A stretch of 60,183 bases of DNA from Alphaproteobacteria bacterium (GTDB lineage: Bacteria > Pseudomonadota > Alphaproteobacteria > Puniceispirillales > Puniceispirillaceae): positions 1 through 60,183 of the forward strand of contig JADHLH010000007.1 of assembly GCA_016780765.1 (NCBI GenBank), given 5' to 3'. Under the pieces are notes generated by a model. That model made no database searches, had not been told where the DNA came from, and saw nothing but the letters and a program-made list of their open reading frames with translations. Position 1 is the first letter of the stretch; each line of letters begins with the position of its first letter. A program made the position numbers and the translations under genes. Of this stretch, positions 3,931 through 59,895 are shown piece by piece.

Positions 3931-5151
3931 TCAGTCAGCGTCACTGACCATGCGACTGACGCGCAGCCGCAAGGCGTTCAGCCGGATAAAGCCATGCGCA
4001 TCGGCGTGATCATAATCCACCGCACCTTCCTCAAAGGTCACCAGATCAGCGTTATACAGCGAATTGGGTGACTTGCGGCCGGTGACAATCACATTGCCCT
4101 TATAGAGTTTGACCCGCACCACACCGCGCACCGCATCACGACAGCTGTCAATGGCGGCCTGCAGCATTTCGCGCTCTGGTGCGAACCAGAACCCGTTATA
4201 GACAAGCTCTGCATAGCGCGGCATCAATTCATCCTTCTGATGCGCTGCGCCGCGATCAAGCGTGATCGATTCCATCGCCCGGCGTGCGGTCAGCAGGATT
4301 GTACCACCCGGGGTTTCATAGACGCCGCGTGATTTCATTCCGACAAAGCGGTTTTCCACCAGATCAAGACGCCCGATGCCGTTTGCCCCGCCAAGCTCGT
4401 TGAGCTTTGCAAGGATTGTGGCCGGCGACATGGCCACACCATCGATGGCCACCGGATCACCAGCCTCAAACGTGATCTCGATTTCGGTTGGGCTGTCTGG
4501 CGCATCCTCGGGCGACACGCTGCGCGAGAAGACATATTCTTCGGGCGCGACCCATGGGTCTTCGAGCACTTTGCCCTCGGCAGAGATATGCAGCAGGTTG
4601 GCATCGACGCTGAACGGCGCTTCACCGCGTTTGTCGCGCGGGATCGGAATCTGGTTCTGCTCGGCATAGGTGATCAGCTTGGTGCGCGATCCCAGATCCC
4701 ATTCCCGCCATGGGGCGATGACCCTGATATCGGGCTGCTGCGCGTAATAGGCGAGTTCGAAACGAACCTGATCATTGCCCTTGCCGGTGGCACCGTGCGA
4801 AACAGCGTCAGCACCCACTTCGCGGGCAATTTCGATCTGGCGTTTGGCAATCAATGGCCGTGCGATCGAGGTGCCAAGAAGATACATGCCCTCATAGAGC
4901 GGGTTGGCGCGGAACATCGGGAATACATAGTCGCGCACAAATTCTTCGCGCAGATCTTCGATGAAAATCTCCTTGATGCCCAGCATCTCAGCTTTCGCGC
5001 GCGCCGGTTCAACCTCTTCACCCTGGCCGATATCGGCGGTGAAGGTTACAACTTCGGCATTGTACTCATCCTGCAGCCAGCGCAGAATGACCGAGGTGTC
5101 GAGCCCGCCCGAATAGGCGAGAACGACTTTTTTGACGTGATCCTGTTTCAT
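3931..5151 (-). CDS. argG: Argininosuccinate synthase
   Basis: 406-residue enzyme joining citrulline and aspartate with ATP to give argininosuccinate, the penultimate step of arginine synthesis. The PP-loop AYSGGLDTS is at residues 12-20. Other family blocks are [41 protein letters not shown] and [13 protein letters not shown]. Length matches the roughly 400-residue norm. The start [13 protein letters not shown] is the only reasonable one. It faces fhs across a 220-bp divergent intergenic region (5152-5371) in which I saw no riboswitch or clear operator. Confidence 0.96.
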
Positions 5152-25161: not shown

Positions 25162-27365
25162 CCCGTATTCCTGATTTTACCAGAATCGATTTGCCAGATA
25201 TCGATTTGCCAGATACCGATCTGCCAGTTGGCAATCCCGCAGGTGTCAGCACAAACACGCTGCCATCACAGATGACGCCTGAAGGCATCTCGCTGCCGGG
25301 TCTGCCGGCACGTGATCAGGCGAACCGCCAGCCGGTAATTGACGGGCTGCCGGGCATCGCACCCTTCCTGCGCGGTCCCTATCCGACGATGTATGCCACG
25401 CGCCCCTGGACCATTCGTCAATATGCCGGATTTTCAACGGCCGAGGAATCAAACGCCTTTTACCGCCGCAATCTGGAGGCCGGGCAGATGGGGCTGTCGG
25501 TGGCATTCGATCTGCCAACGCATCGCGGTTATGATTCGGATGATGATCTGGTTGCCGATGATGTCGGGATGGCGGGTGTGGCGATTGATTCGATCGCCGA
25601 TATGAACCTTCTGTTCCGTGATATTCCGCTGGACCGGATGTCGGTTTCCATGACGATGAACGGGGCGGTTCTGCCGGTTCTGGCATTGTTCATTACCGCC
25701 GCAGAGGAACAGGGTGTTCCGCCAGAGGCACTGGCCGGCACGATCCAGAATGACGTGCTGAAAGAATTCATGGTGCGCAACACCTATATCTATCCGCCGA
25801 CCCCGTCGATGCGGATCATCTCGGATATTTTCGGCTATTGCGCCGACCACATGCCGAAATTCAACTTCATTTCGGTCTCTGGCTATCACATGCAGGAAGC
25901 AGGTGCCTCGAACGATCTGGAACTGGCCTACACGCTGGCTGACGGTCTGGAATATGTGCGGGCCGGGGTGGCTGCCGGTCTTGATGTGGATGCTTTTGCC
26001 CCGCGCCTGTCGTTCTTCTTTGCCACCGGCATGCATTACTTCATGGAGATTGCCAAGCTGCGCGCCGCGCGGGTGCTGTGGGCCGAGATCATGAAGAAGA
26101 ATTTTGACCCGAAGGACCCGAAATCCCTGATGTTGCGGACCCATTGCCAGACATCGGGATGGTCGCTGGCGGCACAGGATGTGTTCAACAATGTGGCGCG
26201 CACCTGTATCGAGGCCAGTGCGGCAGTTGCCGGTCATACGCAATCGCTGCATACGAATTCGCTGGATGAGGCGCTGGGGCTGCCGACCGACCACGCCGCC
26301 CGCATCGCGCGCAATACGCAGCTTCATCTGCAAAGCGAAGCCAATATGGCGCATGTGATCGATCCGTTTGGCGGGTCGCATCTGGTCGAGGAGCTGACGC
26401 AGGGGCTGATCACGCGGGCGCGCCATCACATAGCCGAGGTTGAGGAACTGGGCGGCATGGCGGCTGCGATAGAGGCCGGTATTCCGAAATTGCGGATCGA
26501 AGAGGTGGCCACCGCCACCCAGGCCGAGATTGATTCAGGCATACGCCAGATCATCGGCGTGAACAGCTTTCCGCCCGCCCAGCGCAGTGATGGCAGCGAA
26601 GAAGTACAGGTGCGGCGGATCGACAATAGCGAGGTGCGCGCGCAGCAGATTGCCGGCCTGAAAACCATTCGCGCCAGCCGTGACAGCGGGCGGGTGGCAG
26701 CTGCACTTGATGCGCTGGCCAACGCGGCCGCCGGCAGTGACAATCTGATGCCCTTTGCCATCGAGGCGGCGCGGGCGCGGGCGACAGTTGGTGAGATGTC
26801 GGCGGCCATGGCACGTCATTTTGGTCGCCACAAGGCCGAGATCAAGATGGTGCGCGGTGTCTGGAAGGCCCGCATGAAAGCCAATCCGGATATCAGTGCT
26901 GACATCGACATCCTGAAGGACCGGGTGGATGCGTTTGCTGCTGCCACAGGACGCGCCCCGCGTTTGCTGGTGGCCAAGCTTGGTCAGGATGGCCATGATC
27001 GCGGCCAGAAGGTGATCGCCTCGGCCTTTGCCGATATCGGCTTTGATGTCACCATTGGCCCTTTGTTCCAGAGCCCTGACGAGGTGTATGACCTTGCCAT
27101 TGAAAGCGATGTCGACGCGGTGGGCATTTCAACCCTTGCCGCAGCCCATCTGAGCCAGGTTCCAGCGCTGCGCCGGCGTCTTGATGCGGGTGAAGGGCGT
27201 CATATCGAACTGGTTGTGGGCGGCGTCATTCCGCCGGGGGATGTGCCAGCGCTGACAGCGGCAGGTGCGGCGGCAGTCTTTCCGCCGGGTACCAAATCCA
27301 CGGATGCGGCAGGACGCCTTCTTGACCTTTTGGCGCGGCGTCGCAATATCCCCGTGCATGGATGA
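25158..27365 (+). CDS. mutB: Methylmalonyl-CoA mutase, large (alpha) subunit
   Basis: 735-residue adenosylcobalamin-dependent subunit. Substrate-domain marks include [20 protein letters not shown] (in part), [27 protein letters not shown] and HCQTSGWSL. The C-terminal B12 domain has [12 protein letters not shown] at about 611-622 (the His is the lower axial ligand), GISTLAAAH, and VGGVIPPGD. It supplies the succinyl-CoA exit for propionyl-CoA from odd-chain, branched amino acid or MmsA-derived metabolism. Epimerase and the MeaB chaperone are not in the window. The N-terminal extension contains a 15-bp repeat array. Confidence 0.97.
25173..25232. repeat. 4 x 15-bp tandem repeat in the mutB N-terminus
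   Basis: Units gattttaccagaatc, gatttgccagatatc, gatttgccagatacc and gatctgccagttggc encode [20 protein letters not shown] immediately after the start. The segment lies before the conserved dimer-contact region and is probably disordered. Confidence 0.88.
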
Positions 27366-55926: not shown

Positions 55927-56853
55927 ATGAGCGCAGCGCCGGAATATCCGCGTGACCTGATCGGTTATGGGCCGAACCCGCCGCATGCCGCCTGGCCGGG
56001 TGATGCGCGGATCGCGTTGCAATTCGTACTGAATTACGAGGAAGGCGGCGAGAACGCCATTTTGCATGGTGATCCGGCCTCAGAAGCGTTTCTGTCCGAG
56101 ATTATCGGTGCCGCCCCGTTCGAAGGTGCGCGGCATATGTCGATGGAATCGATTTATGAGTACGGATCGCGCGCCGGGGTGTGGCGGTTGCTGGACCTGT
56201 TCCGCGACCGTGATGTGCCCCTGACCCTGTTCGCTGTGGCCATGGCGATGCAGCGTCATCCGGCGGTCATTGAACGCGCCCTCGGCGATGGTCATGAAAT
56301 TGCCTCGCACGGCTATCGCTGGATCAATTATCACGGCATGTCAGTTGCCGAGGAGACCGCGCATCTTAACCGCGCCATCGAGATTCACACTGAGATTTGC
56401 GGTGAGCGCCCGCTTGGCTGGTATACTGGTCGTACATCTGAAAACACCCGCCAGATTGTTGCTGAGGAAGGCGGTTTTCTGTATGACGCCGATGATTATT
56501 CCGATGATCTGCCATTCTGGAGTACGCAGACCGACAGCCCGCATCTGATTGTGCCTTATACGCTGGACACCAATGACATGCGCTTTGCCACTGCACAGGG
56601 GTTTCATACCGGTGATCAGTTTGCCGCCTATCTGATTGACGCTTTTGACACGCTGTATGCCGAGGGTGAGCGCGCGCCAAAGATGATGTCGGTCGGGTTG
56701 CATTGCCGGCTGATTGGCCGTCCGGCCCGCTTTGCCGGACTGAAAAAATTCCTCGACCATGTGCAGAAACATGACCGTGTGTGGCTGGCGCGCCGGATTG
56801 ATATCGCGCGGCACTGGCGCAAGATGCATCCCTATAATGGTGACGCGGAATGA
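55927..56853 (+). CDS. puuE: Allantoinase, polysaccharide-deacetylase type
   Basis: 308-residue PuuE enzyme hydrolysing allantoin to allantoate, unrelated to the amidohydrolase allantoinases. The N-terminus YPRDLIGYGPNPPHAAWPGDARIALQFVLNYEEG (in part) is diagnostic, with HEIASHGYRWINYHGMS (His motif) and GWYTGRTSENTRQIVAEEGGFLYDADDYSDDLPFW (in part). ATG 55927 has CGGGAGTGGTT before it. Between puuD and puuE lies a short degenerate repeat of tggttgatg. Its stop overlaps allA by ATGA. Confidence 0.93.
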   Translation: MSAAPEYPRDLIGYGPNPPHAAWPGDARIALQFVLNYEEGGENAILHGDPASEAFLSEIIGAAPFEGARHMSMESIYEYGSRAGVWRLLDLFRDRDVPLTLFAVAMAMQRHPAVIERALGDGHEIASHGYRWINYHGMSVAEETAHLNRAIEIHTEICGERPLGWYTGRTSENTRQIVAEEGGFLYDADDYSDDLPFWSTQTDSPHLIVPYTLDTNDMRFATAQGFHTGDQFAAYLIDAFDTLYAEGERAPKMMSVGLHCRLIGRPARFAGLKKFLDHVQKHDRVWLARRIDIARHWRKMHPYNGDAE

Positions 56854-57371
56854 ATCTGCCGCCCCTTGCCATTGAACCGCTGTCAAAGGCGGCGTTTGCC
56901 CCGTTTGGTACTGTGATTGAACGTGACGGTGCAGACATCAGGATGATTAATGAAGGCACCACGACGCGATTTCACGCGCTGTCGGATGTGGATGTGGCGC
57001 GCGAAGGCGGTACCCCGATCCTGTCAATTTTTGCTGGCACGCCGCGGCCGGTCCCGATCGCGATCACGATGCTGGAACGCCACCCCCTGGGATCGCAGAG
57101 CTTTATGCCGCTTTCGGATGAAGACTGGCTGGTGGTGGTTGCGCCGACAAACAGTGATGACAGCGCGCCAGCTTTCGACGCATTGCGCTGTTTTTCGGCC
57201 CGCGGTGATCAGGGCGTAACCTATGCGCCCGGTGTCTGGCATCACCCGCTATTGGTGCTGGCACCACAGGATTTCCTGATTGCCGACCGTGCGGGACCGG
57301 CGGGAGAAGATGCCAGCGCCAACCTGACGGAATACTGGTTTGACGGCGTGGCCGCAGCGATCAGCCTGTAA
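56850..57371 (+). CDS. allA: Ureidoglycolate lyase
   Basis: 173-residue cupin-like enzyme splitting ureidoglycolate into glyoxylate and urea. Family blocks are IEPLSKAAFAPFGTVIE, MLERHPLGSQSFMPLSDEDWLVVVAP (in part), GVTYAPGVWHHPLLVL and the C-terminal EYWFD. ATGA overlap with puuE marks coupling. The step before it, allantoicase (or the allantoate amidohydrolase route), is not in this window. Confidence 0.93.
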   Translation: MNLPPLAIEPLSKAAFAPFGTVIERDGADIRMINEGTTTRFHALSDVDVAREGGTPILSIFAGTPRPVPIAITMLERHPLGSQSFMPLSDEDWLVVVAPTNSDDSAPAFDALRCFSARGDQGVTYAPGVWHHPLLVLAPQDFLIADRAGPAGEDASANLTEYWFDGVAAAISL

Positions 57372-57450
57372 TGGGCATGCGATCTGTCTGCTTGCATGGC
57401 CTCTGGATTCTCTTTCGATTTTCTCACTAAAATGTCATTGAAAATTAACT

Positions 57451-57491
57451 GAACATTAAGCGAACATCCCTATATTGTTCTATATATGTTC
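57451..57491 (+). promoter_or_regulatory. Two LexA-type boxes flanking a -10 element
   Basis: GAAC-attaagc-GAAC (57451-57465) and GTTC-tatatat-GTTC (57477-57491) are each exact matches to the alphaproteobacterial LexA consensus GTTC-N7-GTTC, in opposite orientation. TATATT (57471-57476) between them is a good -10, with CTGAAC 16 bp before it as a weak -35. The next start is the DMT gene 60 bp on. Binding is inferred from sequence only. Confidence 0.55.
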
Positions 57492-57500
57492 ACGAAAAAA

Positions 57501-57556
57501 ACTGACAAATCAAGACTGACAAATCAAGGCTGGCAAATCAAGGCTGGCGCATGACA
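57501..57556. repeat. 3.5 x 14-bp tandem repeat before the DMT transporter
   Basis: actgacaaatcaag twice, then gctggcaaatcaag and gctggcgcatgaca; the start ATG (57551) of the transporter is in the last partial copy, so the 5' untranslated leader consists of repeats and no purine-rich ribosome site is obvious beyond aaatcaag. Confidence 0.88.
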
Positions 57557-58447
57557 AAGTTCCCCATAACAGGCCATCTGCTGCAAGGTGGCAGACCGCT
57601 AGGTGTTATGCTGATCATTGCCTCAACGCTGTTCTTCAGCACCGCTGGCGTTTTCACAAAGGGTGTATATGCAGACGCCTGGAGTGTCATTTTCTGGCGA
57701 GGGGTATTTGCAGCTTTGCTGGGAATCCTGTATCTGGGGATGATTGGCAGGCTCAGGACCGAGATGCGGCGCATGCGTCGTGTGGGCTGGTGTCTTGCCT
57801 TCATTTATGCAAGCGGTACGGCGGCCTTCATCCCGGCCTTCAAGATGACATCCATTGCCAACGTGGCATTGATCTGGTCATCGGCACCATTGCTGGCAGC
57901 GATGCTGGCCTGGCTCTGGTTCAGACAGACCGTGTCGTTTGGCTTTGTTCTGGCAACATTGCTTGCTGCTCTTGGAACGCTGGTGGTTGTCTGGGGGTCC
58001 TTTGGCAGTGCCAGCCTTGCTGGTGATCTGCTGGCGGTCTGGATGACCGCAATGATGGTGCTGATCATGACCATCTATCGCTGCTATCCGGACGCGCCGA
58101 CAACGCTTCCAACGGTTATGGCGTCATTGATTCTATTGCCGGTTGCCTGGCTTCGGGCCGACCACATGCTGATACCGCTGGATGAGATTATGATCACCAG
58201 CCTGTTTGGCGTCACCTTTGTTGTGGCGTCTGTGACCTTGTCAGAGGGGTCGCGCCATCTGGCCTCTGGTGAGACAGCCTTGCTCAGCCTTGGTGAAACG
58301 CCTCTGGCCATTCTCTTGGCGCTTCTGATCCTGGCGGAATACCCGTCAGTTCAGACGCTTGTTGGTGGAGGCATCATCATGGCGGCTGTCGGGTGGTATC
58401 AATGGGCGATGCTGCGTGCAGAACGCCAGTCGCCTAAACGCCAGTAG
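57551..58447 (+). CDS. EamA/DMT-superfamily transporter
   Basis: 298-residue membrane protein with ten hydrophobic segments in two EamA repeats (LIIASTLFFSTAGVFTKG opening the first; LAGDLLAVWMTAMMVLIMTIYR opening the second, LASGETALLSLGETPLAILLALLILAEYPS near the end). It is probably an inner-membrane metabolite exporter; substrate unknown. It stands between the purine operon and the deaminase gene but has its own promoter region with two LexA-type boxes. Convergent with the deaminase gene. Confidence 0.88.
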   Translation: MTKFPITGHLLQGGRPLGVMLIIASTLFFSTAGVFTKGVYADAWSVIFWRGVFAALLGILYLGMIGRLRTEMRRMRRVGWCLAFIYASGTAAFIPAFKMTSIANVALIWSSAPLLAAMLAWLWFRQTVSFGFVLATLLAALGTLVVVWGSFGSASLAGDLLAVWMTAMMVLIMTIYRCYPDAPTTLPTVMASLILLPVAWLRADHMLIPLDEIMITSLFGVTFVVASVTLSEGSRHLASGETALLSLGETPLAILLALLILAEYPSVQTLVGGGIIMAAVGWYQWAMLRAERQSPKRQ

Positions 58448-58503: not shown

Positions 58504-59895
58504 TCAGGCGATATGACCGGATTTCTGCATCAGATGATGCGCCATTGCTGTGTGGTGTTCCAGAATCTGGCCCATTTCCATGGTTGTCAGCTGGCCATTT
58601 GCCACAACATGGCGTCCGTTGATGACAGTGTGACTCGCCTTGACCGGCCCGCAGAACAGCAGGCTGGCGAGCGGGTCCCAGTCACTGCCGGCAAAATCGA
58701 TGGTGCGTCGGTCAAAGGCGGTGATATCGGCGGCATAGCCGGGGGCCAGTATGCCGATATCGTCACGCCCCAGGACCGCCGCCCCGCCGCGTGTGGCAAG
58801 GGCAAGCGTCTGGCGCGCATTCAACGCATCCCCGCCCTTGCACACACGTTGCAACAGCATCGCCTGCCTGGCTTCATTCAGCATGTGGCCACTGTCATTG
58901 GACGCGGATCCATCAACACCGATGCCCACCTTTACCCCCTGATCAATCATCTCGCGGACCGGCGCAATACCGCTGGCAAGGCGCATGTTCGAACAGGGGC
59001 AATGCGCCACGCTGGTGCCGGTGCGGGCAAACAGATCAACCTCGGCGCTGTCAAGCTGGACACAATGCGCGTGCCAGACATCATCGCCGGTCCAGCCTAC
59101 GGCCTCGGCATAGTCGCCGGGGCGCATCCCGAACTGCGCAAGACTATAATCGATATCCTCGACATTCTCGGCCAGATGGGTGTGCAGACCAACGCCAAGT
59201 GCGCGCGCCATATCGGCTGTTTCGCGCATCAGGTCCATCGATACTGAAAATGGTGAGCAGGGTGCCAGCGCCACCCGCTGCATGGCATGGCGCGCCGGAT
59301 TATGAAAGGCTTCAACAACGCGCTGGCTGTCGGCAAGAATGGCAGCTTCGTCTTCGCAAAGATTGTCCGGTGGCAACCCGCCCTTGCTCTCGCCGATGCT
59401 CATCGACCCGCGTGTACCGTGAAAGCGCACGCCGATATCGGCGGCGGCGGCCATCGAATCATCCAGCTTTGCACCGTTCGGATAGAGATAGAGATGGTCA
59501 GAGGATGTTGTGCAGCCGCTCAACGCCAGTTCAGCAAGACCAAGCACCGTCGACCAGTAGATATGTTCGGGGCCCAGATGTGACCAGACCGGGTACAGGG
59601 TCTGCAGCCAGCCGAACAGGGGCGCGTCCTGTGCCGGCGGTACCACGCGCGTCAGATTCTGGAACAGATGGTGATGCGTGTTCACCATCCCCGGAATCAC
59701 AACATGTCCGGTCATATCGATGATCTGGTCGGCATCATCCGGCAGTGACGCGGTTGGGCCAACCTGTTCGATCACACCATCGCGTGCATAAAGACCAGCG
59801 TCCCTGATCTCGATACCGGCAGGCTGTTCAGCACTGGCATCCGCCATGGTGCAGAGAAGGTCAGCATGTTTCAGAAGAAGTGTATGTGATGTCAT
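58504..59895 (-). CDS. 8-oxoguanine/guanine deaminase-type amidohydrolase
   Basis: 463-residue zinc amidohydrolase of the AtzB/TrzN/8-oxoguanine deaminase group. Metal and catalytic residues fall in VNTHHHLFQN (HxH), GVGLHTHLAENVEDIDY (His and catalytic Glu), HAHCVQLDSAEVDLFARTG, and GVGIGVDGSASNDSGHM (Asp). HHLFQNLTR and the SDWDPLASLLFCGP segment fit the 8-oxoguanine deaminases known from marine bacteria. Product uric acid would enter puuD directly. Guanine to xanthine is the alternative. Divergence from guanine deaminase guaD cannot be settled by eye. Confidence 0.86.
   Translation of the reverse strand: MTSHTLLLKHADLLCTMADASAEQPAGIEIRDAGLYARDGVIEQVGPTASLPDDADQIIDMTGHVVIPGMVNTHHHLFQNLTRVVPPAQDAPLFGWLQTLYPVWSHLGPEHIYWSTVLGLAELALSGCTTSSDHLYLYPNGAKLDDSMAAAADIGVRFHGTRGSMSIGESKGGLPPDNLCEDEAAILADSQRVVEAFHNPARHAMQRVALAPCSPFSVSMDLMRETADMARALGVGLHTHLAENVEDIDYSLAQFGMRPGDYAEAVGWTGDDVWHAHCVQLDSAEVDLFARTGTSVAHCPCSNMRLASGIAPVREMIDQGVKVGIGVDGSASNDSGHMLNEARQAMLLQRVCKGGDALNARQTLALATRGGAAVLGRDDIGILAPGYAADITAFDRRTIDFAGSDWDPLASLLFCGPVKASHTVINGRHVVANGQLTTMEMGQILEHHTAMAHHLMQKSGHIA

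Follow-up and report, generated by a model that had tools for sequence, protein, structure and literature searches.

An EamA/DMT-superfamily transporter gene of this alphaproteobacterium is very likely a member of the LexA/SOS regulon (probability about 0.88), the plus-strand site at 57477-57491 being its candidate LexA operator. This reading, which the original prediction had put forward, is well supported by sequence because the box also stands at lexA, imuA and, imperfectly, recA of this genome and because the box is conserved at the exporter promoter in 6/6 genomes of the genus that have the gene. The exporter would very probably be induced upon DNA damage, and a LexA-controlled DMT transporter would be a new target in a known SOS regulon.

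Sites and promoter layout

The relevant features of the window, i.e. the whole stretch of 60,183 nucleotides that was analysed, are the following:

56850-57371, plus strand: allA-like ureidoglycolate lyase gene (Pfam PF04115, E = 1.3e-51), ending before the boxes
57451-57465, minus strand: second LexA-type box GTTCGCTTAATGTTC (GAAC-N7-GAAC on the plus strand), upstream of the putative -10, exact here and in the closest relative (G053) only
57471-57476, plus strand: putative -10 hexamer TATATT, assigned by position, abutting the plus-strand box
57477-57491, plus strand: LexA-type box GTTCTATATATGTTC, the conserved one, directly 3' of the putative -10, exact in 7/7 promoters from six genomes
57502-57546, plus strand: 14-bp tandem repeat CTGACAAATCAAGG in 3.2 copies, situated between the plus-strand box and the ATG, in this genome only
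57551-58447, plus strand: EamA/DMT-superfamily transporter gene, 298 aa (Pfam EamA, E = 1.2e-16, two stretches)
58504-59895, minus strand: 8-oxoguanine deaminase gene (NCBIfam NF006055, 669 bits, cut-off 532), convergent with and downstream of the transporter gene

The plus strand at 57450-57494 reads TGAACATTAAGCGAACATCCCTATATTGTTCTATATATGTTCACG, with two GAAC tetramers (57451, 57462) followed by two GTTC tetramers (57477, 57488). There is thus one exact GTTC-N7-GTTC on each strand, both 8-of-8 matches, just as originally described. The two sites were also said to flank a -10, TATATT, and the positions agree with this; the -10 itself, however, is an assignment that we infer from its place, since a sigma-70 promoter scan of 57300-57600 yielded no site reaching the threshold. 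The same place in the promoters of relatives is occupied by TATATG, TATCTT, TAGATT, CATAAT, CATATT or a TAGCCT-like hexamer. A search of 57300-57700 for an RNA element found none. The plus-strand box lies 60 bp from the ATG of the transporter gene (57551), compared with 15-25 bp in most promoters of the genus, because of the 14-bp tandem repeat, which is missing from the six other transporter promoters. Each unit of this repeat contains AAGG, a possible ribosome-binding sequence.

LexA and the SOS genes of the genus

The genome encodes a LexA that has both the DNA-binding and the peptidase part (PF01726, E = 1.4e-14; TIGR00498, 178 bits against a cut-off of 111), and the promoter of its lexA gene (L035, minus strand) contains GAAC-N7-GAAC-N7-GAAC, which amounts to two overlapping exact boxes in tandem. 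At least one exact box, with the same 11-bp ladder, is found at each of the nine lexA loci in the genus. An exact box also precedes imuA; next come an ImuB-like gene and the gene for an error-prone DNA polymerase (dnaE2; NF004225, 1325 bits). The recA gene has no exact box but displays TTTCCTGTTTTGTTC and GTACCTGATTTGTTC, each with one mismatch, and a box of the GTACCTGATTTGTTC type is kept in 7/10 recA loci of the genus (330 bp examined). It had been suggested to check whether lexA, imuA and recA have the box in common: they do, exactly at lexA and imuA and with one mismatch at recA.

As a separate observation, an opposite-strand box with one mismatch (nnTC-N7-GTTC) is kept upstream of the lexA boxes, at a distance of approximately 35-40 bp (L031, L064-L070), and another is found upstream of the recA boxes. 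Opposed boxes may be usual in the genus.

A distance of 11 bp between half-sites is likewise typical of certain response regulators, which counts for an alternative in which these promoters are bound not by LexA but by another regulator with TGTTC half-sites at that distance. Inspection by eye of L059, L061 and L062 upstream of position 4001 adds to this, as homologous transporters in other alphaproteobacteria apparently adjoin a different local regulator, a helix-turn-helix protein whose gene seems divergent from the transporter gene, instead of having a LexA box. However, the same core is found at lexA and imuA, and imperfectly at recA, of the genus, and no regulator gene adjoins the transporter gene here. 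Moreover, the core equals the published Caulobacter LexA box, GTTC-N7-GTTC (PMC9578287, Table 1; PMC12700426). We therefore consider binding by another regulator very improbable, and LexA is the preferred candidate.

Chance and enrichment

Exactness by itself proves little, since the loose pattern is not enriched. GTTC-N7-GTTC occurs three times in the window against 1.19 expected from the shuffled window, and 49 times in the 2.25-Mb genome against 56 for the reversed control, most of the genome-wide matches falling inside genes. This would suit the view that the boxes are functionless, being fortuitous or relic sites in a promoter rich in A and T. Two other sites were set aside on grounds of location, an exact one at 25677 inside a 735-aa ORF and one at the pal gene (L047) within the end of pal itself.

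A tighter core, GTTC-N4-WW-TGTTC, is common to the boxes of lexA, imuA and the transporter gene. It was observed three times in the window (0.04 expected), nine times in this genome (none in the reversed control) and 82 times in the 12 genomes of the genus (21 in the reversed control, about a fourfold enrichment), counts that are indicative as the core was defined after inspecting these boxes. The full opposed pair was observed once in the window against 0 expected, and nowhere in the 12 genomes other than at this gene and its G053 orthologue. The tighter core being post hoc, conservation is the better argument.

Conservation at the transporter promoter

The transporter is present in 6/12 genomes of the genus, and the exact plus-strand box is found in all seven transporter promoters of these six genomes (two promoters come from G052). 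In an alignment of the seven promoters, 10/10 columns of the TGTTC/TGTTC core are invariant and 0/6 spacer columns are, compared with 10/74 of the other ungapped non-coding columns. The probability that all ten core columns fall among the invariant ones is 7e-8 if columns are exchangeable, a value that is too small because the seven sequences share descent. Box presence also tracks the DMT gene: in the transporter-less G049 and G051, the deaminase gene comes immediately after allA, without a box. Half-sites that stay invariant while the spacer changes freely, together with the roughly fourfold enrichment of the tighter core, speak against chance matches or relics, which already appear unlikely given the conservation and which we regard as extremely improbable.

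The original prediction counted on conservation of both boxes in relatives. This was borne out for the plus-strand box, but not for the minus-strand box, which is exact in G053 only, so that conservation concerns the plus-strand box and not the opposed pair as a unit. Outside the genus, a homologue with 40% identity was found in one genome of another genus (G010), and neither this homologue nor four from other alphaproteobacteria have a box with two exact halves. A survey of 136 genomes from the order, together with further genome contigs, likewise yielded no boxed orthologue outside the genus. The link between box and transporter therefore appears confined to the genus.

The transporter and its neighbourhood

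A structure model of the transporter has ten helices (mean pLDDT 81), and its best Foldseek matches are the DMT structures 5oge, 5i20 and 7paf (E = 2.4e-7 to 1e-5, TM 0.6-0.7). According to this model, the protein, which has two EamA repeats, adopts the DMT fold, and an exporter function is predicted. The two Pfam EamA matches and the ten-helix DMT fold make it similar to EamA/DMT exporters (5i20 has this fold), but, unlike these, sequence searches found no relative of solved structure and no NCBIfam equivalog above cut-off. Comparison with the G053 orthologue gives dN 0.20 and dS 1.22, hence the protein is kept under purifying selection. Of the two copies in G052, the one on contig C150 is frameshifted and the other is cut by a contig end, which may reflect an assembly of mixed strains.

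Throughout the genus, the transporter gene is situated between allA, which it either adjoins or is separated from by a lipoprotein-like gene, and the 8-oxoguanine deaminase gene. In the window, a urate oxidase/PuuE/AllA cluster flanks the transporter gene on the side opposite to the deaminase gene. The lipoprotein-like gene, which encodes 283 aa and is absent from the window, lies between allA and the transporter gene in G053 (L058:3027-3878) and also follows allA in G058 (L177); its product has no Pfam or NCBIfam match.

The convergent deaminase gene is a hint, suggestive only, to the substrate of the transporter, and its conserved proximity offers a concrete candidate substrate. The original prediction had suggested export of a toxic nucleobase or damage product. 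A more specific idea is that the SOS response induces this exporter to remove a harmful product of purine damage, such as 8-oxoguanine or a related base, alongside the neighbouring deaminase; such a product would form upon oxidation of DNA or of the nucleotide pool. We regard this specific idea as quite doubtful. The purine link is perhaps only positional because the deaminase gene and allA also adjoin each other in the absence of the exporter. In a broader version, the main role of LexA control would be to tie the purine-degradation cluster to DNA damage, with breakdown products of purines, or oxidized purines, leaving the cell through the exporter. Although the gene order of the genus (allA, transporter, 8-oxoguanine deaminase) favours such coupling, the box is found at the exporter only, the deaminase gene being boxless and on the other strand, purine genes exist in relatives that have no exporter, and DMT substrates are not readable from sequence at such distance. 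This version is unlikely too.

A model for LexA control of the exporter

Repression by LexA, RecA-triggered self-cleavage of LexA and the ensuing SOS induction are established LexA behaviour. By extension, we infer LexA binding, repression, induction and the start point at this promoter. In undamaged cells, LexA would sit on 57477-57491, immediately after the putative -10, covering the start site and blocking RNA polymerase. In this genome and in G053, the minus-strand site would act as a second, probably reinforcing, operator on the upstream side of the putative -10. Upon damage, RecA filaments on damaged DNA would promote LexA self-cleavage, and the exporter would then be made along with recA, lexA and imuA-imuB-dnaE2.

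Comparison with known systems

SOS regulons consist mostly of repair, mutagenesis and division genes. To our knowledge, exporters in such regulons are few, DinF being the known case, with a purpose that is unsettled. DinF is an exporter of the MATE family encoded in the lexA-dinF operon of E. coli; enterobacteria and vibrios more generally have it in their lexA operon, and it protects against oxidants and bile salts (PMC3327717). It resembles the transporter described here in being a putative exporter under SOS control, with a similar position in the network, which in the present case is predicted from comparisons of promoters. However, DinF belongs to the MATE superfamily, occurs in another lineage with another box and is transcribed from the lexA promoter, whereas the DMT gene has its own promoter. 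DinF is the nearest functional precedent, and the transporter is not a DinF family member. Should the present reading be correct, a second, unrelated exporter superfamily would have come independently under LexA, which would point to export as a recurrent element of the response to DNA damage.

With the LexA regulon of Caulobacter crescentus, the likeness is one of box (da Rocha et al. 2008, cited in PMC9578287; PMC12700426), with lexA and imuA boxed in the genus studied here and recA at one mismatch, and the difference is the DMT exporter as a target. The words 'transporter' and 'efflux' are absent from the main texts of PMC9578287 and PMC12700426. A search of the literature on LexA together with EamA or DMT turned up no description of such a target, which is weak evidence of novelty as most subscription journals are outside its coverage.

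Other boxed genes in the genus

Two further genes of the genus are preceded by conserved exact boxes:

L038:1983-1997 (G000:C109:11982-11996): LexA-type box upstream of mraZ; also in L097, L101, L110, L113, L128, L135 and L144
L114:1153-1434: gene for a 93-aa protein; also in L096, L108, L126, L132, L142 and L153, the copy of this genome being L172 (G000:C49:381-659)

In eight genomes of the genus, the mraZ box lies approximately 150-350 bp upstream of this gene, with which the division cluster begins. In parallel, for gut bacteria a LexA site ahead of mraZ was confirmed by EMSA with B. subtilis LexA (PMC3998124), although that box is of the Gram-positive type and from another phylum, so the link between LexA and mraZ seems, as far as the boxes indicate, to have arisen in distant groups. 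In seven genomes, an exact box precedes the gene for the 93-aa protein, which has four paired cysteines (zinc-ribbon-like) and matches no Pfam family. The copy in this genome has a box with one mismatch, GAACAAATCATAAAC, and the gene is likely an uncharacterized SOS gene.
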